The position numbers were made by a program, and so were the translations under genes. Below are positions 30,349 through 49,401 of a stretch of DNA of 64,000 nt, one piece after another. Source of the stretch: an archaeon (GTDB taxonomy: Archaea; Thermoproteota; Nitrososphaeria; Nitrososphaerales; Gagatemarchaeaceae); NCBI GenBank assembly GCA_021823325.1, contig JAKAOG010000003.1, positions 106,498 to 170,497 of the forward strand, in the 5' to 3' direction. The notes beneath the pieces were generated by a model, which was not told the DNA's origin, made no database searches, and saw only the letters and a program-made list of their open reading frames with translations. How positions within the stretch are numbered: the first letter of the stretch is position 1; every line of letters begins with the position of its first letter.

Positions 30349-31395
30349 TCATGGTGCCGCCCGAGTATAAGTTCCGTTGAACACGTACGCCGCGGTAACG
30401 TTCAGAAGGTAGGAATATCCCTCTGCGCTGGTCCCGTCATAATGCGGTTCTATCGCCGACCTCTCGTGATACTCGTTCCACGAGTAGATCAGCACCAGTT
30501 TCACCTGAGAGCGATGGCTGATTACGAAACTCCATTCAGCCTGGTAGAGGCCAAGCTGCAGCGCGGGGTCGAATCTGAGGTACCCCTCTTGATTGCCTGA
30601 CCGGTTGTTGTAGTAGCTGTCGATCCTTGGGACGATCGTGACTTCGCCGTCGGAGGAGATGAGAGGGTTGCCGATGTCGTTGGCGGCGTCCACCCCTGGC
30701 TGGAGCTGCGACTGGAAGAAGCCCCCTGGAGCGCTCCAAAACAGCCAGTCGACCGGATTCGGGCGGTTGCCTATCGTCCTCACCGTGAAGCGGGTGTCGT
30801 TGGTCTGAGGGTAGATTGGATTGAAGAAGAGCAGGAGCGGATGTCCCTCCCAGGAGAAGTACCAGTCCGAATAGGTCGAAGCGAACTGCGAGTACACGTA
30901 GTTGTATACGGAGCTCAGAGTGGATTCGTTGAGGTTGTTCCCTCCGTCAAACGTATCGACCATGACCGCGGCCTTGAAGGTGGAATTTGTTCCCTTGAGG
31001 AACCTGAAGAAGTCGAGGGTCGCCTTGTCGATGGCTCCAGCCTCGCCTGTCCTTGACGGCCCCCACCACGAGATCACCGCGAACCCGATCCCCGCAGACT
31101 GCATCTCCTTGACCTGCCATTGGAAGGTGGCGTTGCTGTCCGACACATAGTAGCCGATGGCAGGAGTATCCACCACCGCCCCGCCTCCGGGGTATGTGCT
31201 GCTGTTCCAACCGGGTGATCCAAGTCCGCCTACCCCGGCCGTCGCGTTGCCGTACCAGAGGTATAGGAAGGTACCGACTGGAACATTCAGACCCTCCGTT
31301 CCTGGAACAGGTTCCACAGGGTAGAATGAGAGAAAGGCGGCGACCGATACGATGACGACCATGATCAGAATCAATGCCCAAAGCTTACGCCTCAA
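30349..31395 (-). CDS. secreted glycoside hydrolase-like protein (GH99-like)
   Basis: N-terminal TM/signal, FLYLWYGN, GFAVISWWGPS, LIYSWNEYHERSAIEPHYDGT. Confidence 0.65.
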   Translation of the reverse strand: MRRKLWALILIMVVIVSVAAFLSFYPVEPVPGTEGLNVPVGTFLYLWYGNATAGVGGLGSPGWNSSTYPGGGAVVDTPAIGYYVSDSNATFQWQVKEMQSAGIGFAVISWWGPSRTGEAGAIDKATLDFFRFLKGTNSTFKAAVMVDTFDGGNNLNESTLSSVYNYVYSQFASTYSDWYFSWEGHPLLLFFNPIYPQTNDTRFTVRTIGNRPNPVDWLFWSAPGGFFQSQLQPGVDAANDIGNPLISSDGEVTIVPRIDSYYNNRSGNQEGYLRFDPALQLGLYQAEWSFVISHRSQVKLVLIYSWNEYHERSAIEPHYDGTSAEGYSYLLNVTAAYVFNGTYTRAAP

Positions 31396-31625
31396 GGCCG
31401 CCCACGACTCGCCGACCCGACATATTTTGCTTGTGCTACCGAGTTGCTAATCAGAGCGTGATAACGAAGGCATTGCGGCGTCAATCTGTTACTCCGCTTG
31501 GCCAACAGGGGAAGAGGCAGACTCTTCGGGCCAACGCAGACTAGAGATGCCGACGCTTCAACTCAATTCGTAGTTCGCAGGTATAAGAGAACCCTTAATG
31601 TAGAGATAGCGTCTCTTACAGACGG

Positions 31626-31970: not shown

Positions 31971-31981
31971 GATAGCCCGAC
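31971..31981. repeat. weak tRNA-Gln 3'-end-like fragment (GATAGCCCGAC)
   Basis: 11-nt match to the fragment at 33041. Confidence 0.3.
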
Positions 31982-32033
31982 CGACTGTCGCAGAAGCTGT
32001 CAATCAAAATCAAAAGTGAGGATGGATTCACGC

Positions 32034-33029
32034 CTACTCGGCAAGTACAAACAAGGAAGTGGTCTCGCCATTCTCATATGTATTCGGTGGGATGACTACC
32101 TGACCGTTCACAAACAGATAGTTGGTGATCACGCCGCCCTCGCTCCCTTGCAACTGTGACATGATGCCCTGAACTTGGTTCAGGGTCGAGTTATACGAAA
32201 CGACGGATGCTTCGGTGTGCGAGTTGTTCATCAGGGCTTTGAACGCGATCAGGTCGAGGGCCAGCTTGTAGGATGTATATCCTTCCGATTGGTTGTAGGC
32301 CTGGTCTGCGAACCCCTGGCCGTTCCAGAAGCTGTTCGCGTGTTGGAAGGCCGCCACTGCGTCGGCGTAGTCTCCATAATGAAGCAGGTTGATGCAGTAG
32401 TACAGCTCAAGGTCTGCGTACTGGGTATAGCCGCTGCCCATGGGTCCACCCCATTCGGTCTCCTTCACCACGAACCCGCCGTTGTTGGGAAGCGGTGAAT
32501 AGTTCTGGCCAAGGGAGACGTCTTTGCCGCTGTACATGTTCCACTCCGAGCCTTGACAGGGGACGGGCATGTACGCCCCTAACACTACGTCTACGCCATT
32601 CCAATAACCGTAAGAACAACTGGTGGTGTTGAAACCGCCGTACAGGCCGCCGAGGACGGCTTCCATCGTCGCGTTGATCTTGCCCGCCAACGAAATGTCA
32701 CCAAGCTTTGTCAGGGCAGCCTGGTCCAACTGCTGGTCGTCCGAGAGGTATATCGTGTTGCTGCCAGGATACACTCGGAGGAGGCCGCTCGGCGTGCTCA
32801 GGCTTTCGAAGAAGGCGGTCGCGTTCCGGTCGCTAAATGAGAAGCTAGACTTCACAGCCGTCGCCTGACCTTCATTCAAAGCCGCCCCGCTGTCAAGCCA
32901 TGCAGAGAGTCCGATGACTACGACCAGCGTCAGTAACGCCACGGCCAACGCCTTCCGGCGAGCTCCATGTCCGCCTTTGCTCACGCTCTCGCTACGGCTC
33001 AACGCCCCGCCTCTACGTCGACCCAACAA
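32034..33029 (-). CDS. hypothetical secreted/membrane-anchored protein
   Basis: N-terminal TM (ALAVALLTLVVVIGLSAWL) and extracellular-type Ser/Asn/Tyr-rich domain. Confidence 0.65.
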   Translation of the reverse strand: MLGRRRGGALSRSESVSKGGHGARRKALAVALLTLVVVIGLSAWLDSGAALNEGQATAVKSSFSFSDRNATAFFESLSTPSGLLRVYPGSNTIYLSDDQQLDQAALTKLGDISLAGKINATMEAVLGGLYGGFNTTSCSYGYWNGVDVVLGAYMPVPCQGSEWNMYSGKDVSLGQNYSPLPNNGGFVVKETEWGGPMGSGYTQYADLELYYCINLLHYGDYADAVAAFQHANSFWNGQGFADQAYNQSEGYTSYKLALDLIAFKALMNNSHTEASVVSYNSTLNQVQGIMSQLQGSEGGVITNYLFVNGQVVIPPNTYENGETTSLFVLAE

Positions 33030-33031
33030 AA

Positions 33032-33064
33032 AAGCTCACAGATAGCCCGACTAGGATTTGCACC
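33032..33064 (-). repeat. displaced tRNA-Gln 3'-end fragment (att-like)
   Basis: aagctcacagatagcccgactaggatttgcacc matches 29/33 nt of 38413-38445 at the tRNA-Gln 3' end. Confidence 0.75.
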
Positions 33065-33099
33065 CATACAGGTTCGAATCGCATTGCCACAGGGAGACA

Positions 33100-35061
33100 C
33101 TAGGGTACTGCGTTCAACTTTCTCAGCTTTCCCAGGAGGAACTGATACCTCGGGTCCTCCCTGGCCTTGCCGAAGAGAGGGCAGTACAACACGTAGGCAT
33201 ACCTCAGTGTATGCTGGTCTGTGGCCCTGTCAATGTAGGCGAAGTAAGAGTCAAGGTCACCCAGAGCGTAGTGAATGAAGGCTATGTCATTGAGATTGGT
33301 GGCCCCGAGCCACCTCGCTTCGATCTCCTTGATGACCTCAAGCGCCCCCTTCTGGTCCCCTGTCAGAGCAGCCATGAAACCTCTCATCCACGTACACCAG
33401 CGGTTCGTGGGCTCCAGTTCCTCAGCCTTTGAATAGCACTCCCTGGCCTTTTCGATGTCCCCCTTGTAGAGGTAGTATTCTGTCATGTTTCTGAAGGTGT
33501 CAGCTGGAGCGAGCTGCAAGGTCTTCTCCCAATGCTGGAGTGCGTCTTTCTCTCTCCCGATGTAGAAATAGATTCGACCCAGTCGCCCTACAACCCGCGG
33601 CATTACCGGATCAAGACGGTAGGCAGCCTCCATAGTCCTGACTCCTTCATCAATGTCTTCCTTCATCAAGGCCACGTCACTCAAGAGATCATAGGTCTCC
33701 GGAAGGCTAGGATTCAGTTCGATCGCCCGTCGAGCCTCCGCCTCGCTTCCACGCAAGTCGTCCTCTAGAAAACGGACGTCCGCAAGGGTCGCGTGGGCTT
33801 CAGCCAACTCCGGGTTCAGGCTGAGCGCCTTCTTGGCGAAGAGCTCCGCCCTGGGAGCGGTCCGCTCGTAGGGGTCATACCCATCCATGGTCAGAGACAC
33901 GTAGGATGCAGCGACCCCGGCGTATGCCTTGGCGAAGGACGGGTCAAGGGCTATCGCCCTCTCGAAGAGCCCGAGAGCTTGCCTGAATGACGGTTCGGTT
34001 CTTTCTCCGACAAGCTGCCGCCCTCGCAAGTATAGTGTGTACGCCTCAGTGTTCTCGGTGGGCTTCGTCTCCAGGGTCTTCTTCTCGGAGTCCAACAGGT
34101 GGACCTTGAGCTCGGCGGCCACCTTCTCGGCTATCTCGCTCTGCACGGTGAAGATGTCATCCAAGTCCTTGTCATAGTGGGACGACCAGAGATGCTCTTC
34201 CGTTCCTGCGGTGATGAGCTGGACTGTGACTCGGACCCTGTTGCCGGCTTTCCTAACGCTTCCCTCGACGAGGGTCCCGACCTCAAGTTCCTTGGCGATC
34301 TGCGATGCTTTCTTCTTCTCTCCCTTGTAGCTCATCACCGATGTCCTAGCTATCACCTTCAGGCTCTTCACCTGGGCGAGCCTGTCCAGCAGCTCCTCGG
34401 TCATGCCATCGGCAAAATATTCGTCGTTGGGGTCAGGGCTCATATTGACGAAGGGGAGGACGGCGATCCGATTCGGGTCAAGGAGGGAAACAGTCGACTC
34501 GCTGTGCTGCGGCCTCGCCCATGGTAAAGTCAGCCTGTATACGTCGATTGGTTCGCTGACGTTCTTCAATCTCGGGTTTACAATCTTGTCCATGAGGTAA
34601 GGAACTTTGTTCTTGACCTGCTCGTAGACAGGCCCGGAGATGCACACTCCTCCTGGCTCGGCCAGCGGCTCGATTCTTGAGGCTACGTTCACCGCATCAC
34701 CGAGGATATCGCTCCCGCTTTCGATGACGTCCCCCATATGGACCCCAATTCTGAGGGAGATCGTCACTCCCGTCGCGACGCTCCTATCGTGTATGATATT
34801 CTGGATTGCAGTCGCACAGAGTACTGCGTCAAGGGCGCTCTCGAACTCAACCAGGAATGCGTCGCCGACCGTCTTGACCTCGCGTCCGCGATGGCTTGCG
34901 AAATAGGGCCGCAAGAGTCTCCTGTGCTCTTCTAGAGCCTGCATGGCGCCGGACTCGTCTTTCTGGGTGAGCGAGGTATAACCTACTATGTCGGTGAACA
35001 TGATAGCTGCGAGCCTGCGTTCCCCCTCTGACATTGGAGCCCCTGCATGCCGCATTCCCAT
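33100..35061 (-). CDS. class III adenylate/guanylate cyclase-TolB-like-TPR protein
   Basis: AAIMFTDIVGYTSLTQKDE, VKTVGDAFLVEF, ILGDAVNVASRIE; IAVLPFVNMSPDPNDEYFADGMTEELLDRL; C-terminal TPRs. Confidence 0.92.
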   Translation of the reverse strand: MGMRHAGAPMSEGERRLAAIMFTDIVGYTSLTQKDESGAMQALEEHRRLLRPYFASHRGREVKTVGDAFLVEFESALDAVLCATAIQNIIHDRSVATGVTISLRIGVHMGDVIESGSDILGDAVNVASRIEPLAEPGGVCISGPVYEQVKNKVPYLMDKIVNPRLKNVSEPIDVYRLTLPWARPQHSESTVSLLDPNRIAVLPFVNMSPDPNDEYFADGMTEELLDRLAQVKSLKVIARTSVMSYKGEKKKASQIAKELEVGTLVEGSVRKAGNRVRVTVQLITAGTEEHLWSSHYDKDLDDIFTVQSEIAEKVAAELKVHLLDSEKKTLETKPTENTEAYTLYLRGRQLVGERTEPSFRQALGLFERAIALDPSFAKAYAGVAASYVSLTMDGYDPYERTAPRAELFAKKALSLNPELAEAHATLADVRFLEDDLRGSEAEARRAIELNPSLPETYDLLSDVALMKEDIDEGVRTMEAAYRLDPVMPRVVGRLGRIYFYIGREKDALQHWEKTLQLAPADTFRNMTEYYLYKGDIEKARECYSKAEELEPTNRWCTWMRGFMAALTGDQKGALEVIKEIEARWLGATNLNDIAFIHYALGDLDSYFAYIDRATDQHTLRYAYVLYCPLFGKAREDPRYQFLLGKLRKLNAVP

Positions 35062-35084
35062 AGCGATAAAACGGTTTGCAGCGC

Positions 35085-35915
35085 TCAGGCCCGCATCCGG
35101 TGCTTCGACCTGGCTGCAAGATATGCGCCCGTGATCAGCAATCCAGTAACGATGGCCAAGGTCCCCTGGTACGGGAACTCTGGAATCCCGGGCACGATGC
35201 TGCCGGTGCCATGGGTGATGGTGACACTGACGTAGGTTGTGGAAGCGGTAGACCCCTGCGAGAGGTCAGAAATGGGAATCGTGTATCCTGACCCAGATCC
35301 GAAGGTTATGTTCTGCGAGGCGCCCACAGTTGGCGAAGGGGGCGAAAAAGTGCAGACGGCCCAGTCGGTGACGTTCAGGTTGAAGGTGAGTTCTTTCGTG
35401 CCCAGGATGCTAGCACCGGTATAGGCGACGTTGTACACCTTTGAAAGGGCGTACTCACTGTTGCAGGAGATGGTCCCCACCACGGTACAGTAGCCGGCAG
35501 CGCCGGCACAAGGCGCAGTTTCGTTGAAGGTCCCTTGGCCCACAACGTCGACAGTGCCGCTCCCCACCGCGATGCCCGACTGGCAGCTCACCCCGTCAAC
35601 CGTGCAAGGGGGGCCTCCCGACTGGGTCGCGACCCCGAAGTCGCCGCTCCAGGTGCCACTTTCGTTCTCCTTCAGGCACCTGTAGAAGTGGTATGTACAC
35701 AGCGTGCCCGGGAGGACGTACTGGGTCCCGTTGCCCTGGACGTGTATCTGGACGGTCCCCTGTACCGGGAAGTCGGCGGGGGAGGTTCCGTTGGACTGGG
35801 CCATGCCAATTGGGACGGATGCCAGCGACGACATGAGGAGGGCCAGGACGAAAACGACTGCTGCGGCGACCGGAGACACGCCGCCTCGGCCGTCTTTGAA
35901 GGACTGCACCGCCAT
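35085..35915 (-). CDS. secreted protein with pilin-like N-terminus and IPEFP-TM-basic C-terminus
   Basis: GGVSPVAAAVVFVLALLMSS N-terminus; IPEFPYQGTLAIVTGLLITGAYLAARSKHRMRA C-terminus. Confidence 0.7.
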   Translation of the reverse strand: MAVQSFKDGRGGVSPVAAAVVFVLALLMSSLASVPIGMAQSNGTSPADFPVQGTVQIHVQGNGTQYVLPGTLCTYHFYRCLKENESGTWSGDFGVATQSGGPPCTVDGVSCQSGIAVGSGTVDVVGQGTFNETAPCAGAAGYCTVVGTISCNSEYALSKVYNVAYTGASILGTKELTFNLNVTDWAVCTFSPPSPTVGASQNITFGSGSGYTIPISDLSQGSTASTTYVSVTITHGTGSIVPGIPEFPYQGTLAIVTGLLITGAYLAARSKHRMRA

Positions 35916-36103
35916 CCCCGCATAAATTTGGTCTGTTTTCGTACTTAAGCACGCACCGTCTTTTCCAGAAAGGCCTTCCGTTGACTCGCCGTGCTTGGAT
36001 ACGCGTAGTAGAAGGACGGGAGGGCGCGTATCCTGCAGGGCTGGTTTCGCCTCGCCGATGCTTCAAACCTGTTCCAGGGGGAGGATATGCTGCTTGAGCA
36101 AGG

Positions 36104-36117
36104 TAGCCCGGCTAGGA
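36104..36117 (-). repeat. displaced tRNA-Gln 3'-end fragment (att-like)
   Basis: TAGCCCGGCTAGGA identical to 38424-38437 at the tRNA-Gln 3' end. Confidence 0.65.
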
Positions 36118-36164
36118 ATATGTAAGGGTCAATCATATCCTGACCCTTGACGGGTTTGGTCTCG

Positions 36165-37928
36165 TCAAGTCTGTTCCGACTTGGAAAGCAGCTCGACCGC
36201 CCTGTTGTATGCTTTGATTACGTCAGTTCGAGTGATCATCCCGGCCAGTTCGCCAGACATTCTTGAAACAACGGGAAGACGACCGACACCGTGGGTGGTC
36301 ATCCTGTCAAGCGCAGCAAGCAATGATTCATCGGGGTAGGCTGTCAGCAGGTTCTGGGTCATTACCGACTTTATCGGGGTAGAAGCCATCTGCTCGCGCG
36401 GAACTCTGAGGAGATCGCTCATGGTTGCTATCCCTACCGCCTTCCCTGACTGTACGATAGGGACGCCGCGGAAGCCCCTGTCGAGCATGGCCTGGTAGGC
36501 ACTTTCAACGGCATCGTCCGGAGAGAACGTCAAGACGTTGTGGTTCATCGCGTCAGAGACAAAGATCTTCGTCAGTAATGGGACGTTGTATTCCCCTCTG
36601 TGAGCAGGGGAATCTGACCGCTTCGCAACTTGGCTACGGTAGATGGTGTATTTTGGACCTACTACGAAATATGAAATTACGACTGCTACCATTGATGGGG
36701 CTAGCAGGGACAGCGTTCCTGTCATTTCACTTACCATCAGGATCACCGCTATTGGGACTCGGCCTACCCCACCGAACAGGGCCACCATCCCGACTATGAC
36801 AAGCGGCGCGGGGACCGGGATCACGCCTGGTAGAACCCCATTCAGTGCTACCCAGAAGGCTGCGCCTACGAACCCCCCAATGACCAACGAGGGGGCGAAG
36901 ACACCGGCGCTGCCTCCTGAACCCACAGTAAGGGAGGTGGCGACGATTTTGAAGAACACGACCAGCAGAAGCACGACAAGTATGGGCGCCGTTACAAAGT
37001 TAATCCCGATCAGGTTGATCTGTCCGTTGATCAGATACTGGAGAAAGCCATACCCGAGGCCCAATACCTCCGGGAAGAAAATCCCGATTACCCCCGAGAT
37101 TGCCAGCCCGATGACCGGCTTCGCGAACCTCGGAATGTTGAACGCCGAGAAGATCCGCCTTATGGAGTAGAACGAGGTCGTGTATGCCCTTCCGACGATC
37201 CCGCATGCCACGCCCAGCAAGGCGTAGAACAACAGGTTGGCTGGATGATTGAAGGAATACGACACGGAGTTTCCAAAGATGGGAGAGAATCCGGCATAAG
37301 ATGCGAAGATGACGTATCCAATGGGCGAGGCGATGAACGAGGGAATCAGGGCTTCGGTCTCGAAGTCTCCTCCGCTGTAGAGGATTTCTCCACTCAGCAT
37401 GGCACCTCCGAAGGGCGACTTGAAGATCGAACCTATTCCCGCGCCGATTCCAACCGCGACTGCTATTCTTCGGTCCCTCACTGGTAACTTGAGTGCATCT
37501 CCCACGAAAGACCCGAACCCTGCCGCAATCTGGGCTGTGGGCCCCTCTCTCCCTCCGCTCCCGCCAGAGCCTATTGTGAGGGCTGACGCTATCGCTTTCA
37601 CGACTGGGATTCTCCGTCTTATCTTGCCATCCTTGCGATGAAAGGCTGCGATCGCTTCGTCGGTTCCATGGCCTTCTGCCTCAGGAGCGAACCTGTAGAC
37701 GATGAGCCCCGTAGCCAGCCCGCCCAGGGCTGTCGACAGTGGGACGAGCCAAAAGTTCGGGTTAATCGTTGTCGGAGAGATAGCTTCCCCGGCCGGATTG
37801 GGTGGATAGAACCCCGTAATCCCGCCGAGCATGAAGTTGGTTACAAACTGAATGAGAACGTAGAATATGATGGCGCCGACGCCGGCGATTATGCCGATGA
37901 ATAAGCCGATTACGGTCCACTTCGCCAA
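36165..37928 (-). CDS. CLC-type chloride channel/antiporter with C-terminal CBS pair
   Basis: GSGGSGGREGPTAQIAAGFGS, GSGGSAGVFAPSLVIGG and two CBS-like repeats. Confidence 0.93.
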   Translation of the reverse strand: MAKWTVIGLFIGIIAGVGAIIFYVLIQFVTNFMLGGITGFYPPNPAGEAISPTTINPNFWLVPLSTALGGLATGLIVYRFAPEAEGHGTDEAIAAFHRKDGKIRRRIPVVKAIASALTIGSGGSGGREGPTAQIAAGFGSFVGDALKLPVRDRRIAVAVGIGAGIGSIFKSPFGGAMLSGEILYSGGDFETEALIPSFIASPIGYVIFASYAGFSPIFGNSVSYSFNHPANLLFYALLGVACGIVGRAYTTSFYSIRRIFSAFNIPRFAKPVIGLAISGVIGIFFPEVLGLGYGFLQYLINGQINLIGINFVTAPILVVLLLVVFFKIVATSLTVGSGGSAGVFAPSLVIGGFVGAAFWVALNGVLPGVIPVPAPLVIVGMVALFGGVGRVPIAVILMVSEMTGTLSLLAPSMVAVVISYFVVGPKYTIYRSQVAKRSDSPAHRGEYNVPLLTKIFVSDAMNHNVLTFSPDDAVESAYQAMLDRGFRGVPIVQSGKAVGIATMSDLLRVPREQMASTPIKSVMTQNLLTAYPDESLLAALDRMTTHGVGRLPVVSRMSGELAGMITRTDVIKAYNRAVELLSKSEQT

Positions 37929-38040
37929 GTAGTTTCTTTGGATGATTCTGTTGATCCTGAATCGGGTATCTGACAGTCCTGCTCGACGCCTCGTGAGAAG
38001 AACTTCGAGCTCCCTAGGGTCTTAAACCTGCTTCGCTCTC

Positions 38041-38307
38041 TTGGGCATGATGGGACTCCCGGGTGCCGAGCTTTTTTTGGCTCGAATCTCCTCTTGTATT
38101 GCACTCTTCGATCGTCGAGTGACGGTGGATGCATTATTGCAGTTAGGAAAGGGCAGGTTCTTCAACGGGCCAACACGGACGGGAGGGAAGAAGTACGACA
38201 AGTTCTTCATCTACGTCCCCACTGATCTGGCGAAGGACTCCCTCTTCCCGTTCAAAGACGGCGACCTCCTGGAGTTCGATACCGAAGGCAAGACTCTTCA
38301 AGTCTAG
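38041..38307 (+). CDS. small AbrB-like-fold candidate protein
   Basis: C-terminal FFIYVPTDLAKDSLFPFKDGDLLEFDTEGKTLQV; start uncertain. Confidence 0.5.
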   Translation: MGMMGLPGAELFLARISSCIALFDRRVTVDALLQLGKGRFFNGPTRTGGKKYDKFFIYVPTDLAKDSLFPFKDGDLLEFDTEGKTLQV

Positions 38308-38423
38308 AAGGGCCGTGCGTCCTAGCCAAAGGGAACGAGCTCTCAGGTAGTAGGGACTGATTTGGGATGTCGGTAGCCTACAGAGCTTGAAATATGCTCT
38401 GTCCAATAAAAGAAGCTCAAAGA

Positions 38424-38496
38424 TAGCCCGGCTAGGATTCGAACCTAGGTCGAAGGCTCCAGAGGCCCCCATCCTTGACCACTAGACGACCGGGCT
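38424..38496 (-). tRNA. tRNA-Gln (anticodon CTG)
   Basis: Acceptor AGCCCGG/CCGGGCT, T-arm CTAGG-TTCGAAT-CCTAG, anticodon stem-loop GGGGC-CTCTGGA-GCCTT. Confidence 0.9.
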
Positions 38497-45847: not shown

Positions 45848-46035
45848 CCTTGAATCAGGACGACTTGTCTCCCCGTGCCGCTGCTCTTCTTAAAATCCAC
45901 GAACGGGTCGGGGACCGATGAACAAGGGGCTCGCCGCAGCGAGCCTGCGTGTCAGGGACCCTGGATCCGCGATACGAAATCCGCCGGTCTGGCACACCGG
46001 AACCATTCATATCCCAGAGCTAAGGGAGGCTGCTT

Positions 46036-46125
46036 GGGCCCGTAGCCCAGCACGGACAGGGCGTCAGCCTCCGAAGCTGAAGTGCGAAAGCTCAGAGACC
46101 GTGGGTTCGAATCCCACCGGGCCCG
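46036..46125 (+). tRNA. tRNA-Arg (anticodon CCG) with about 15-nt extra sequence between anticodon stem and T-stem
   Basis: Acceptor GGGCCCG/CGGGCCC, D stem GCCC/GGGC, anticodon arm TCAGC-CTCCGAA-GCTGA, T-arm GTGGG-TTCGAAT-CCCAC. Confidence 0.85.
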
Positions 46126-46261
46126 TTATGGAATAGCTCAGAATGAACCCTGTTGGTCAGACTGAGGCTGAGTCCAACGATTTGTAAAATGCTCTTAGGC
46201 GCAGCGCCAAGGCACTAGAGAAAGTGCGGTCGCAAACGGTTTTATCTGAAGTCCACTCGAC

Positions 46262-48187
46262 ATGCCGTGTAGCCAGTTGCCAAAACGCGAGCGGAGACTC
46301 GCAGCGATCATGTTTACCGACATGGTTGGTTACACCGCCCTGGGGCAGAGAAACGAGGCACTATCGCTCGAACTTGTCGAGGAACAGAAGCGTCTGATTA
46401 GGCTCGCTGTTCGTGCAGACAACGGCAGAGATGTAAAAACAATCGGAGACGCCTTCCTCATCGAGTTTCCTAGCGCACTCAACGCTGTCAGGTGCGCATA
46501 CGCCATCCAGAAAGCAGTAAGGGAATACAACATTTCTTCGTCCGAGGAACGAAGATTCCAAATCAGGATAGGCATTCACCTCGGGGACGTTGTCGACACC
46601 GACGGGGACATCTCTGGGGATGCAGTCAATGTCGCCTCGCGAATTGAGTCACTTGCGGAGCCTGGAGGGGTCTGTCTTACTCGCCAGGTATTCGACCATG
46701 TCCAGAACAAGTTCGAACTCTCGTTGGTGAGTGTCGGGGAAAAACAGCTGAAGAACGTCGCGTCGCAGATCGAGTTGTACAGGATGAAGATGCCCTGGGA
46801 GAAAGAGGACATGGAATCTCCTAACAAATCTGACACCAAGAGGATTGCTGTTCTTCCATTCGCTAACATGAGTCCCGACCCCAATGATGAATATTTTGCC
46901 GACGGCATGACAGAAGAACTGATTTCCGCCATGTCAAAGGTCATAGGGCTTGAAGTCACTTCCAGAACTTCTGTCATGCAATACAAGAAGAACCCTCGAA
47001 TGGTCAAAGACGTGTCCAGGGAATTGGGAGTTGGGAGCGTGCTTGAGGGGAGCGTCCGCAAGACCGGGGACAGACTGCGCATTACGGTCCAGTTGATAGA
47101 TTCAAGAAAGGATTTGCATCTCTGGTCGGAGACGTACGACAGAAAACTCGAAGACGTGTTTGCTACTCAAAGCGAAATTGCGGAACGGGTGGCGGGCGCC
47201 TTGAAAGTGAAGCTCCTGGCACAGGAAATGACACGCATTCAGGAAGAGCCTACGAAGAACATCGAAGCCTACACGAACTGTATCAAAGGAGTACAAACGA
47301 TTAGGAAAGGTTGGAGCGAAGAGGACACATGGAAGGCCATCGGATTCTTCGAGCGGGCGATTGAACTTGATCCAGAATACGCTACGCCCCACGCGTGGCT
47401 TGCTACCTGCTATCTGACCCCTTACGTGACGGCCACGGTCGGCAGCATCCTTCCGGCGAGCCAAGCCGTTCCCGTTGCTGAACGCGCAATCAAACGTTCC
47501 ATTGAGCTTGACCCTAGTCTGGCCGAGGCCCACCTAGCATCAGGTCAGTTGTGCAAGCTAAGACTCAACTGGAAAGAGGCTGAGAAGGAGATAAGAAGGG
47601 CAATCGAACTTGACCCAAGCGTTTCCGGAGGACAATCCACTTATGCCTGGACTCTTTTGTCGATGGGGCGGCATCAGGAGGCGCTGGCTGCGGCTACGAA
47701 AGCACTGAAGCTTGATCCTCTTTCCCCAGACACCCATGAAGCACTGGGCTTTGCTTACTACTGCATGAGGGCATACGACGATGCGATCAAGTGTATACAG
47801 AGAATGGAAGAATGGGGTGCTAATCCGATGCTTGTTTCAAGCAGGCTGGGTTGGCTCTATCTTGAAAAGGGATGGTACGACAAGGCTCTGAAAGAATGGG
47901 AAAAGGTCGGACTGGAGGCCGACCTTGCCGTTCTTTATGCGAAGATGGGGAGGACCGACGAGGCTCGTAAGATTCTGATGCAAGCGAAGAAAGAAGGGTA
48001 TCAAGGATGGGGGCTAATCGAGATTCATCTCGCACTGGGGGACACGGACGAAGCAATTCAACTTCTTGAGCGCGCTTACGAACTGCAGGACGCGTTCACA
48101 TTCAGTCTCATGTTCTCCCATCTTTGGGACGGTGTCCGATCTGACCCAAGAGTCGTCGCCCTCGAAAAGAAGACAGGGCTAGTTTGA
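46262..48187 (+). CDS. class III adenylate/guanylate cyclase-TolB-like-TPR protein (paralog of 33100-35061)
   Basis: AAIMFTDMVGYTALGQRNE, VKTIGDAFLIEF, ISGDAVNVASRIE; IAVLPFANMSPDPNDEYFADGMTEELISAM; TPRs. Confidence 0.93.
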   Translation: MPCSQLPKRERRLAAIMFTDMVGYTALGQRNEALSLELVEEQKRLIRLAVRADNGRDVKTIGDAFLIEFPSALNAVRCAYAIQKAVREYNISSSEERRFQIRIGIHLGDVVDTDGDISGDAVNVASRIESLAEPGGVCLTRQVFDHVQNKFELSLVSVGEKQLKNVASQIELYRMKMPWEKEDMESPNKSDTKRIAVLPFANMSPDPNDEYFADGMTEELISAMSKVIGLEVTSRTSVMQYKKNPRMVKDVSRELGVGSVLEGSVRKTGDRLRITVQLIDSRKDLHLWSETYDRKLEDVFATQSEIAERVAGALKVKLLAQEMTRIQEEPTKNIEAYTNCIKGVQTIRKGWSEEDTWKAIGFFERAIELDPEYATPHAWLATCYLTPYVTATVGSILPASQAVPVAERAIKRSIELDPSLAEAHLASGQLCKLRLNWKEAEKEIRRAIELDPSVSGGQSTYAWTLLSMGRHQEALAAATKALKLDPLSPDTHEALGFAYYCMRAYDDAIKCIQRMEEWGANPMLVSSRLGWLYLEKGWYDKALKEWEKVGLEADLAVLYAKMGRTDEARKILMQAKKEGYQGWGLIEIHLALGDTDEAIQLLERAYELQDAFTFSLMFSHLWDGVRSDPRVVALEKKTGLV

Positions 48188-48441
48188 GATACTTTCCAAC
48201 TTCTGATATGAATTCGTAGGACCTATCTCCGATCCATTTGCAAAGTATTCCAAACTGACGACCGTATGGCTGCAAACACGAGGGGAACAACTCGTCTGTT
48301 AGAGAAGGGGAAGCCCGCCGGGATGCAGTTTCTTGGGTGGTTCAGACTTTTTGGTCCTTTGCTTCAAGTGCCCGCGCAGACCTGACTTGCTCGCGTACGA
48401 ACCTCACAAGATCTAGATTTGAACCCATAATGGGTCCTGGC

Positions 48442-48475
48442 CCCACCGGGCCCGCTTATGAAATAGCTCAGAATG
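48442..48475 (+). repeat. displaced tRNA-Arg 3'-end plus downstream flank (att-like)
   Basis: CCCACCGGGCCCGcTTATGaAATAGCTCAGAATG nearly identical to 46113-46145. Confidence 0.85.
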
Positions 48476-48731
48476 GACTCTGAATGGTGAACGGAAGGTG
48501 AACCTAGGTATTCCAGCGTCGCTTCTAAATCGCCGCGGTTGTTTGCAGAATGATTTCTGCTGTTAACTGGGTAGCCCGGATTCGAAACGACGGTTTGCTG
48601 AATCGCTGCTAGAGCGGTGCGTGAAAGATTCGAACCCATAATGAATCCCGCACCCACCGGAGGTGAAGCAGGCATCGTGACGAATGCCAGAGTTGGAATC
48701 GGTGAGCCATCGCGATGAGACCTGCCCAAGC

Positions 48732-48983
48732 TCAATCGTACGCCTTAGAGCGGTGCCTTATCCTCAGGACTATGACGTCGCTGTCCGAGAGGGCATACAC
48801 CACTCTGTACTCGCCGATTCTGAGTTTGAGGAGGCCTTCGAAGTCGCCGTGGAGTCGCTCACCTGACTGGGGATTGTCGCCCAGAGTCGCCCTGACCTGC
48901 CTCAAGATTCGGTCGACCTCCTTCGAAGAAATCTTCCTGAGATCGCGACTTACGGAGGACTTGTAGAGTATCTTACTGGTCAA
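48732..48983 (-). CDS. RelE/ParE-family toxin
   Basis: MTSKILYKSSVSRDLRKISSKEVDRILRQV...LKLRIGEYRVVYALSDSDVIVLRIRHRSKAYD. Confidence 0.9.
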   Translation of the reverse strand: MTSKILYKSSVSRDLRKISSKEVDRILRQVRATLGDNPQSGERLHGDFEGLLKLRIGEYRVVYALSDSDVIVLRIRHRSKAYD

Positions 48984-49191
48984 GCTTGACCAGTTCTTTC
49001 TCCGACACCAGGCGGTCGTCCTTGTCGTTCAACCGGTGCAGGGCAATCAGGTAGTCCTCATACTCCTCCAAGTACTCTTTCAGCGCCTTGGTGACGATGT
49101 ACGTCTTGGGGCGGTCCAAAGACTTCGCGAGTTCCTCGAGGCGCTTAGCGACGTCCTCGGGGAGCCTGACCGATACCGCTTCGCTCATCAC
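48973..49191 (-). CDS. ribbon-helix-helix antitoxin
   Basis: MSEAVSVRLPEDVAKRLEELAKSLDRPKTYIVTKALKEYLEEYED; overlaps relE. Confidence 0.88.
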   Translation of the reverse strand: MMSEAVSVRLPEDVAKRLEELAKSLDRPKTYIVTKALKEYLEEYEDYLIALHRLNDKDDRLVSEKELVKLDQ

Positions 49192-49260
49192 ATGTAAGAC
49201 AGCGATGACTTGTATTTATGATTTGCACGAAGAGGACTCGAACCCATTACTGGTCCGGAA

Positions 49261-49290
49261 CCCACAGGTCCCGTTACGAAACAGTTCAGA
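49261..49290 (+). repeat. second displaced, degenerate tRNA-Arg 3'-end plus flank
   Basis: cccacaggtcccgttacgaaacagttcaga, about 24/30 identical to 46113-46142. Confidence 0.65.
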
Positions 49291-49401
49291 GCTAGCTCTG
49301 TCAGGCAGAAGGGGCTTGGCGGCTTCGGGGACCCACCGAGCGGGACTTGGAAGACACCCTTCCCATGCCAATCCGTCGCACGTGAAAGCAGGACATTGTG
49401 C

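Follow-up and report, generated by a model that had tools for sequence, protein, structure and literature searches.

In the usual view, CIMEs are ICEs or IMEs that have decayed and reside at one site, and tycheposons, which like the cassettes described below are tRNA-linked islands with varied cargo, are known from bacteria and carry a recombinase of their own. Among the islands integrated at the ssrA gene of Dehalococcoides, some have no integration genes and have been proposed to be cis-mobilizable elements (PMC3146451). In a survey of thaumarchaeal integrated elements, 39 of the 68 mapped elements occupy tRNA genes, the 3' end being the site in every case but one (PMC6563490). In this work we have analyzed a stretch of 64,000 nt (the window) from contig C4 of a 921 kb archaeal metagenome-assembled genome (MAG; 85.65% complete) by setting it against 30 further species of its genus, which may fall within the group I.1c family Gagatemarchaeaceae; the species are referred to by G numbers, and every comparison is between species and MAG-based. 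The tRNA-Gln array of the window exemplifies a system found at many tRNAs throughout the genus, in which cassettes of one or two genes (for toxin-antitoxin pairs and for signalling, secreted and defence-like proteins) are stacked behind tRNA genes in an integron-like form of gene collecting, without a recombinase gene in the cassettes.

A first-pass annotation of the window had placed a tRNA-Gln(CUG) gene on the minus strand, which ARAGORN confirmed (Table 1), and had read the recurrence of its 3' end as the layout to be expected of serial integrations into one tRNA 3' end. Copies were scored (+1/-1.5, ungapped) in the 6.5 kb downstream of tRNA-Gln against 600 first-order Markov shuffles. The copy at 36.1 kb scored 15.5, attained by the best match in 0.17% of the shuffles; the copy at 33.0 kb, announced as 33032-33064 and slightly longer here, scored 24.5, attained in none, and the reverse strand of the same DNA reached 11.0. 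This 33.0 kb copy is 86% identical to 38409-38445 over a length of 37 nt, of which about 15 lie outside the tRNA. A third copy claimed at 31971-31981 had to be rejected as independent evidence, because its score lies below the mean best shuffle score (9.25); it is not supported by sequence alone. The right-end sequence at the 36104-36117 core, ACCCTTACATATTCCTAGCC, is nearly identical at an array junction of G014, and the right-end motif GATTCGAACCTGTATGGGTGCAAATCC at the 33028-33064 core continues towards 33089, where right-end model R2 matches 33043-33089 (E 4e-9, training member).

Table 1. Coordinates of the features of the two tRNA-linked arrays in the window.
Feature	Position	Strand	Basis or remark
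tRNA-Gln(CUG), attachment site of array	38424-38496	-	ARAGORN
Cassette Q1 (CLC channel, small ORF)	36118-38423	-	Between tRNA 3' end and 36104-36117 core
Small ORF in Q1, adjoining tRNA-Gln	38041-38307	+	
CLC channel gene in Q1	36165-37928	-	Voltage_CLC, CBS (Pfam)
tRNA-Gln 3' core	36104-36117	-	Repeat search; 14/14 match
Cassette Q2 (276-aa protein, cyclase-TPR)	33065-36103	-	
276-aa protein in Q2	35085-35915		No Pfam family
Cyclase-TPR gene in Q2	33100-35061		Guanylate_cyc, TPR (Pfam)
tRNA-Gln 3' core with flank	33028-33064	-	Repeat search
Possible cassette Q3	31982-33027	-	Distal boundary weak
331-aa protein in possible Q3	32034-33029		No Pfam family
Weak third core, GTCGGGCTATC	31971-31981	-	Score 9.0, chance level
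tRNA-Arg(CCG), attachment site of second array	46035-46126	+	ARAGORN
Conserved left end directly behind tRNA-Arg	46126-46176	+	Model R1, E 3e-8 (training member)
Cassette R1 (second cyclase-TPR gene)	46127-48455	+	Gene 46262-48187 (+)
Right end of cassette R1	48408-48452	+	Core CCCACCGGGCCCG
Cassette R2 (~200 bp)	48456-48660	+	Left end 48456-48507, right end 48618-48660
Cassette R3 (ParE/RHH pair)	48661-49274	+	Right end 49226-49271
ParE-type toxin in R3	48732-48983	-	Pfam PF05016, 2e-11
Ribbon-helix-helix antitoxin in R3	48973-49191	-	Pfam PF01402, 1e-7
Left end behind last tRNA-Arg core	49275-49319	+	Model R1, E 4e-5 (training member)

Pfam searches agreed with the module content described earlier, namely a CLC channel with a small ORF, a cyclase-TPR gene with a second protein, and one further protein. 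The CLC gene was discarded as a cassette marker since it is located elsewhere in other species; its closest copy (82%) lies in G023, about 0.75 kb past the point where the cores of a tRNA-Arg(UCG) array end. The small-ORF region next to tRNA-Gln also occurs in G014 and G008, and some insertions in the window may therefore have happened away from the tRNA. Part of the gene order may stem from another route, and a strict order with the newest cassette next to the tRNA is not fully consistent with the small ORF adjoining tRNA-Gln. A 348-aa secreted-type protein encoded at 30349-31395 has marginal similarity to GH99 endo-alpha-1,2-mannosidase (E 0.089). Positions 31527-31546 and 38166-38185 form an imperfect repeat with the block of modules between its copies; in G014 the regions around both copies are directly joined and the small ORF adjoins the GH99-like gene, which in the window is located beyond the array. 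The repeat could not be accepted as a remnant of the small ORF, the match at the protein level being not significant (E 0.22).

On the 5' side of tRNA-Gln, genes for an aminotransferase, a HAD protein and ArgRS adjoin the tRNA in nearly every relative examined, and the interval between the tRNA and the conserved flank on its other side ranges from 0.6 to more than 13 kb across species. An APC-permease flank is found 585 nt from tRNA-Gln, without any fragment, in G022 and G024 (92.9% identical to each other), at 1.8 kb in G009, 3.5 kb in G008, 8.2 kb in the window and 10.6 kb in G014; a PadR/ABC-transporter block lies at distances from 1.8 kb (G023) to 13.6 kb (G017). In the sister species G021 the flank is 1.1 kb from the tRNA and in the window the same flank is 13.5 kb away. 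An ArgRS tree places the window together with G021, G001/G011 and G022/G024 (99/99); behind tRNA-Gln(CUG), the search of G021, G001, G022 and G024 gave no core repeat, and the corresponding region of G011 is lost at a contig end. Same-orientation 3' fragments follow tRNA-Gln in G014 (three), G017 (three), G016, G012, G005 and G043, and tRNA-Gln(UUG) in G022 and G041, and shuffles yield 0-0.15 such fragments per array. Extra cores in 23 array regions are on the same strand in 36 cases vs two on the opposite strand; as the search patterns had been adjusted to cores already seen and the regions picked for having them, this ratio is descriptive and not a blind test.

Fragments were also seen behind tRNA-Arg(CCG) in G017 (L041, about 780 nt away) and tRNA-Glu(CUC) in G016 (L119, about 1705 nt away). 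In G041 (C78 and C68) and G024 (C71), contigs end no more than about 100 nt from a tRNA-Gln core, as expected if repeated cores disturb assembly, and arrays in MAGs may be under-counted. No strain pair differing by a single cassette at otherwise identical sites was found, and no circular form or excision product was seen in the MAG data. Serial integration itself is well supported by the 30-species comparison, as the first-pass annotation had anticipated: relatives, in which it had asked for empty sites, do have shorter ones, and neither a conserved gene order free of repeats nor chance-level matches, which would have refuted it, emerged.

The precise junctions that it had also called for are seen in a cassette of about 740 bp, located behind tRNA-Gln(UUG) in G022 and aligning with copies in G014 (behind tRNA-Gln(CUG)), G044 and G013. 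Similarity ends at the tRNA core on both sides and the flanking DNA differs among species. Its genes, on the other strand, are those of a ParE-type toxin (PF05016, 9e-9) and of a DUF2683-like partner, whose match (2e-5) narrowly misses the family cut-off. Because its size and both ends are kept in several species and behind two tRNAs, this cassette most likely moved as a 740-bp unit. Core-delimited cassettes (n=36) have a median size of 2 kb, 30 being no longer than 3.1 kb, and the cargo of the arrays comprises toxin-antitoxin genes (ParE, HicA, PIN, Fic), GmrSD- and FRG-domain proteins, a DNA methylase, O-methyltransferases, beta-helix secreted proteins, peptidase A4 and cyclase-TPR proteins. 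The latter are encoded in both arrays of the window and in arrays of G043 (two genes) and G012, and G023 has one immediately beyond a core; relatives of the Q2 cyclase-TPR gene sit in the tRNA-Gln arrays of G043 and G012.

The absence of an integrase from the window, already noted in the first reading, was upheld, and tblastn of the array loci with about 30 integrases of the genus detected none in the 36 core-delimited cassettes, its matches at array loci falling solely outside delimited cassettes, in G023 and G005. Pfam scans of array ORFs revealed no serine recombinase and, among the selected ORFs scanned, no viral or conjugative genes. The own genome contains one sub-threshold tyrosine-recombinase match, on another contig, and at 85.65% completeness an integrase could be missing from the assembly. 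Set against tRNA-targeting integrative elements of the tyrosine type, the cassettes have the same-orientation tRNA 3' repeat at the far boundary and shorter sites in relatives (G022, G024 and G021, between species), and an integrase inside the element was not detected in the 36 cassettes. As CIMEs they are att-flanked with no integrase or transfer genes found, the transfer genes being judged by Pfam of selected ORFs only.

The arrays might instead be remnants of tandem autonomous elements (proviruses, ICEs or cryptic integrated elements) whose integrases were lost by deletion. Tandem integration and integrase loss are documented in archaea (PMC8371274, PMC6563490), and an integrase-bearing element does occupy tRNA-Gln in G003, where a 427-aa tyrosine integrase (L050:1395-2678) starts 41 nt behind the tRNA. 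We nevertheless judge this reading improbable, though it survives better than the others: decay of larger elements does not readily account for a 740-bp cassette that keeps its size and both ends in several species and at two tRNAs, nor for the preponderance of cassettes of at most 3.1 kb and the lack of viral or conjugative genes among those scanned. Relatives of the G003 integrase adjoin tRNA-Glu (G043), tRNA-Leu (G010) and tRNA-His (G011).

When the flanks of the cores were aligned, the cassettes were found to share a left end of about 50 bp and a right end with inverted T-loop arms. Right ends at both Gln and Arg sites share GATTYGAACCCATAWTGGGT, which corresponds to an inverted T-loop arm separated by a short spacer from the beginning of a T-loop arm, a layout that may be interpreted as that expected of a symmetric core site of a tyrosine recombinase. 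A left-end model built from 14 Gln/Arg-site sequences gave 59 matches at E <= 1e-3 in 21 of 31 genomes. Among the non-training matches checked, 37 of 42 abut a known tRNA 3' end or fragment (score at least 10, attained by 0.7% of 2040 random control positions), and most of the remainder look like ends of tRNAs outside the list used. The targets include Asn(GUU), Ser(GCU), Ala(UGC), Arg(GCG) and Arg(UCG). Across the order the left end was found in 25 of 400 genomes, 23 of them within the family, and in the other two it does not abut a tRNA. The left end behind the tRNA-Gln of the window is of a different type from this main family.

Its position directly behind tRNA 3' ends would also suit a conserved 3' trailer or terminator, the fragments then being duplications of tRNA plus trailer through homologous recombination or gene conversion. 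Such an origin appears very unlikely, as the left end follows only a minority of the own-genome tRNAs and many of its matches follow a 3' fragment where there is no tRNA gene. Moreover, the right ends are conserved too and are distinct from tRNA 5' sequence, cassette boundaries are exact and the cargo varies between copies.

The second array of the window, behind tRNA-Arg(CCG), combines these ends in three cassettes. Cassette R2 has a partial core (CCCACCGG) and no supported ORF. The ParE/RHH cassette R3 is 82% identical to a sequence of G011 from the module through the right end, core and left end, and the gene pair is found again in G023, within a tRNA-Arg array, and in G005, where it follows the core of a different tRNA. 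When 15 own-genome tRNAs were scanned for 3' repeats, tRNA-Arg(CCG) gave three matches, one other tRNA a single weak match and the remaining 13 none. One of the three tRNA-Arg(CCG) matches, at about 57.7 kb (14/14), lies inside a Rieske gene and has been treated as a chance match.

Of the integrases found near arrays, that of G005 lies just ahead of the first core of an array, and the location of the G003 and G005 enzymes beside such sites only suggests that cassettes are mobilised by the recombinase of a related element. The tyrosine recombinase of G023 (L277:6282-7355) is 87-94% identical in G004, G009 and G045, and in three of these four genomes it lies within several kb of tRNA-Thr. It was excluded as an array gene (G023:C88), being located past the last of the Asn cores, and no Asn core lies near its relatives in G004, G009 and G045. 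It thus looks like a resident gene and possibly a trans-acting enzyme. Integrases that could act in trans therefore do exist in the genus, and the actual mover of the cassettes has not been demonstrated.

The explanation that we favour, and regard as likely, is that small cassettes reside at the T-loop/3' ends of tRNA genes and that a tyrosine recombinase encoded elsewhere moves them in trans. It builds on observed repeats, variable occupancy, core-exact boundaries shared between species, shared ends, several tRNA targets and delimited cassettes in which no integrase was detected; the enzyme, its trans action and any current activity are inferred. Cassettes, mostly of about 0.5-4 kb and usually with few genes, none for a recombinase, would integrate site-specifically at the tRNA T-loop/3' end, the incoming copy of the 3' end rebuilding the tRNA and the previous one being shifted to the far side, and repeated insertion would yield a tandem array of tRNA fragments in the same orientation. 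The right end, with an inverted T-loop arm (GATTCGAACCC) separated from a T-loop arm by a short spacer, would form a symmetric site whose arms are presumably bound by a recombinase acting in trans, supplied by integrase-bearing elements that use the same sites or resident in the chromosome. All tRNAs having almost the same T-loop, several tRNA genes are open to a single cassette lineage. A bolder proposal, archaeal integron-like capture with the almost universal T-loop as the attachment site in common, in which one resident or helper tyrosine recombinase recognises the symmetric T-loop arms and gathers, moves and swaps small cassettes among many tRNA genes within one genome, remains tentative and at present rather doubtful. 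Capture by a true integron (IntI acting at attI/attC) seems very unlikely, for despite toxin-antitoxin cargo in cassette arrays that are recombinase-free as in CALINs, and the occurrence of integrons in archaeal MAGs (PMC9668308), the shared sites are tRNA 3' ends and not attC, and of two integrases tested one scored 27.5 bits with TIGR02249 (cut-off 265) and the other gave no match.

If the favoured explanation is true, it would account for the way in which accessory genes (for toxin-antitoxin pairs, restriction-like and secreted proteins, and cyclases) accumulate as species-specific arrays in a family of uncultured archaea. The signature of left end, T-loop-arm right end and tRNA core lets cassettes be delimited in MAGs. 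The explanation also makes a testable claim, namely that cassettes lacking a recombinase pass from one tRNA gene to another by virtue of the T-loop that these genes have in common.

The closest published layout that we found in the open-licence literature is that of the Dehalococcoides ssrA islands, followed by CIMEs and integron CALINs; an earlier description is not excluded. Thaumarchaeal integrated elements belong to the same phylum as the cassettes but are larger, complex and multigenic (proviruses, ICEs, cryptic elements), and arrays of small integrase-free cassettes with shared ends were not found in the accessible part of that survey (PMC6563490). Integron arrays and CALINs, including archaeal ones (PMC9668308), likewise consist of small tandem cassettes and often lack a recombinase, whereas the cassettes described here use the tRNA 3' end instead of attI/attC, and no IntI was identified among the two integrases tested. 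CIMEs formed by accretion resemble them in keeping attL/attR and lacking an integrase, and are mobilised by a relative, as is only suggested for the cassettes; unlike CIMEs, the cassettes have ends conserved across targets and species. The ssrA islands of Dehalococcoides share with the cassettes the tandem arrangement marked by repeats of an RNA-gene 3' end, the conserved motif beside the repeat and the insertion in the T-loop, but have the single target ssrA and, in 16 islands, a serine recombinase module (PMC3146451), whereas the archaeal cassettes, in the delimited ones of which no recombinase has been detected, use many tRNA targets, measure about 2 kb and are bounded by symmetric T-loop arms.
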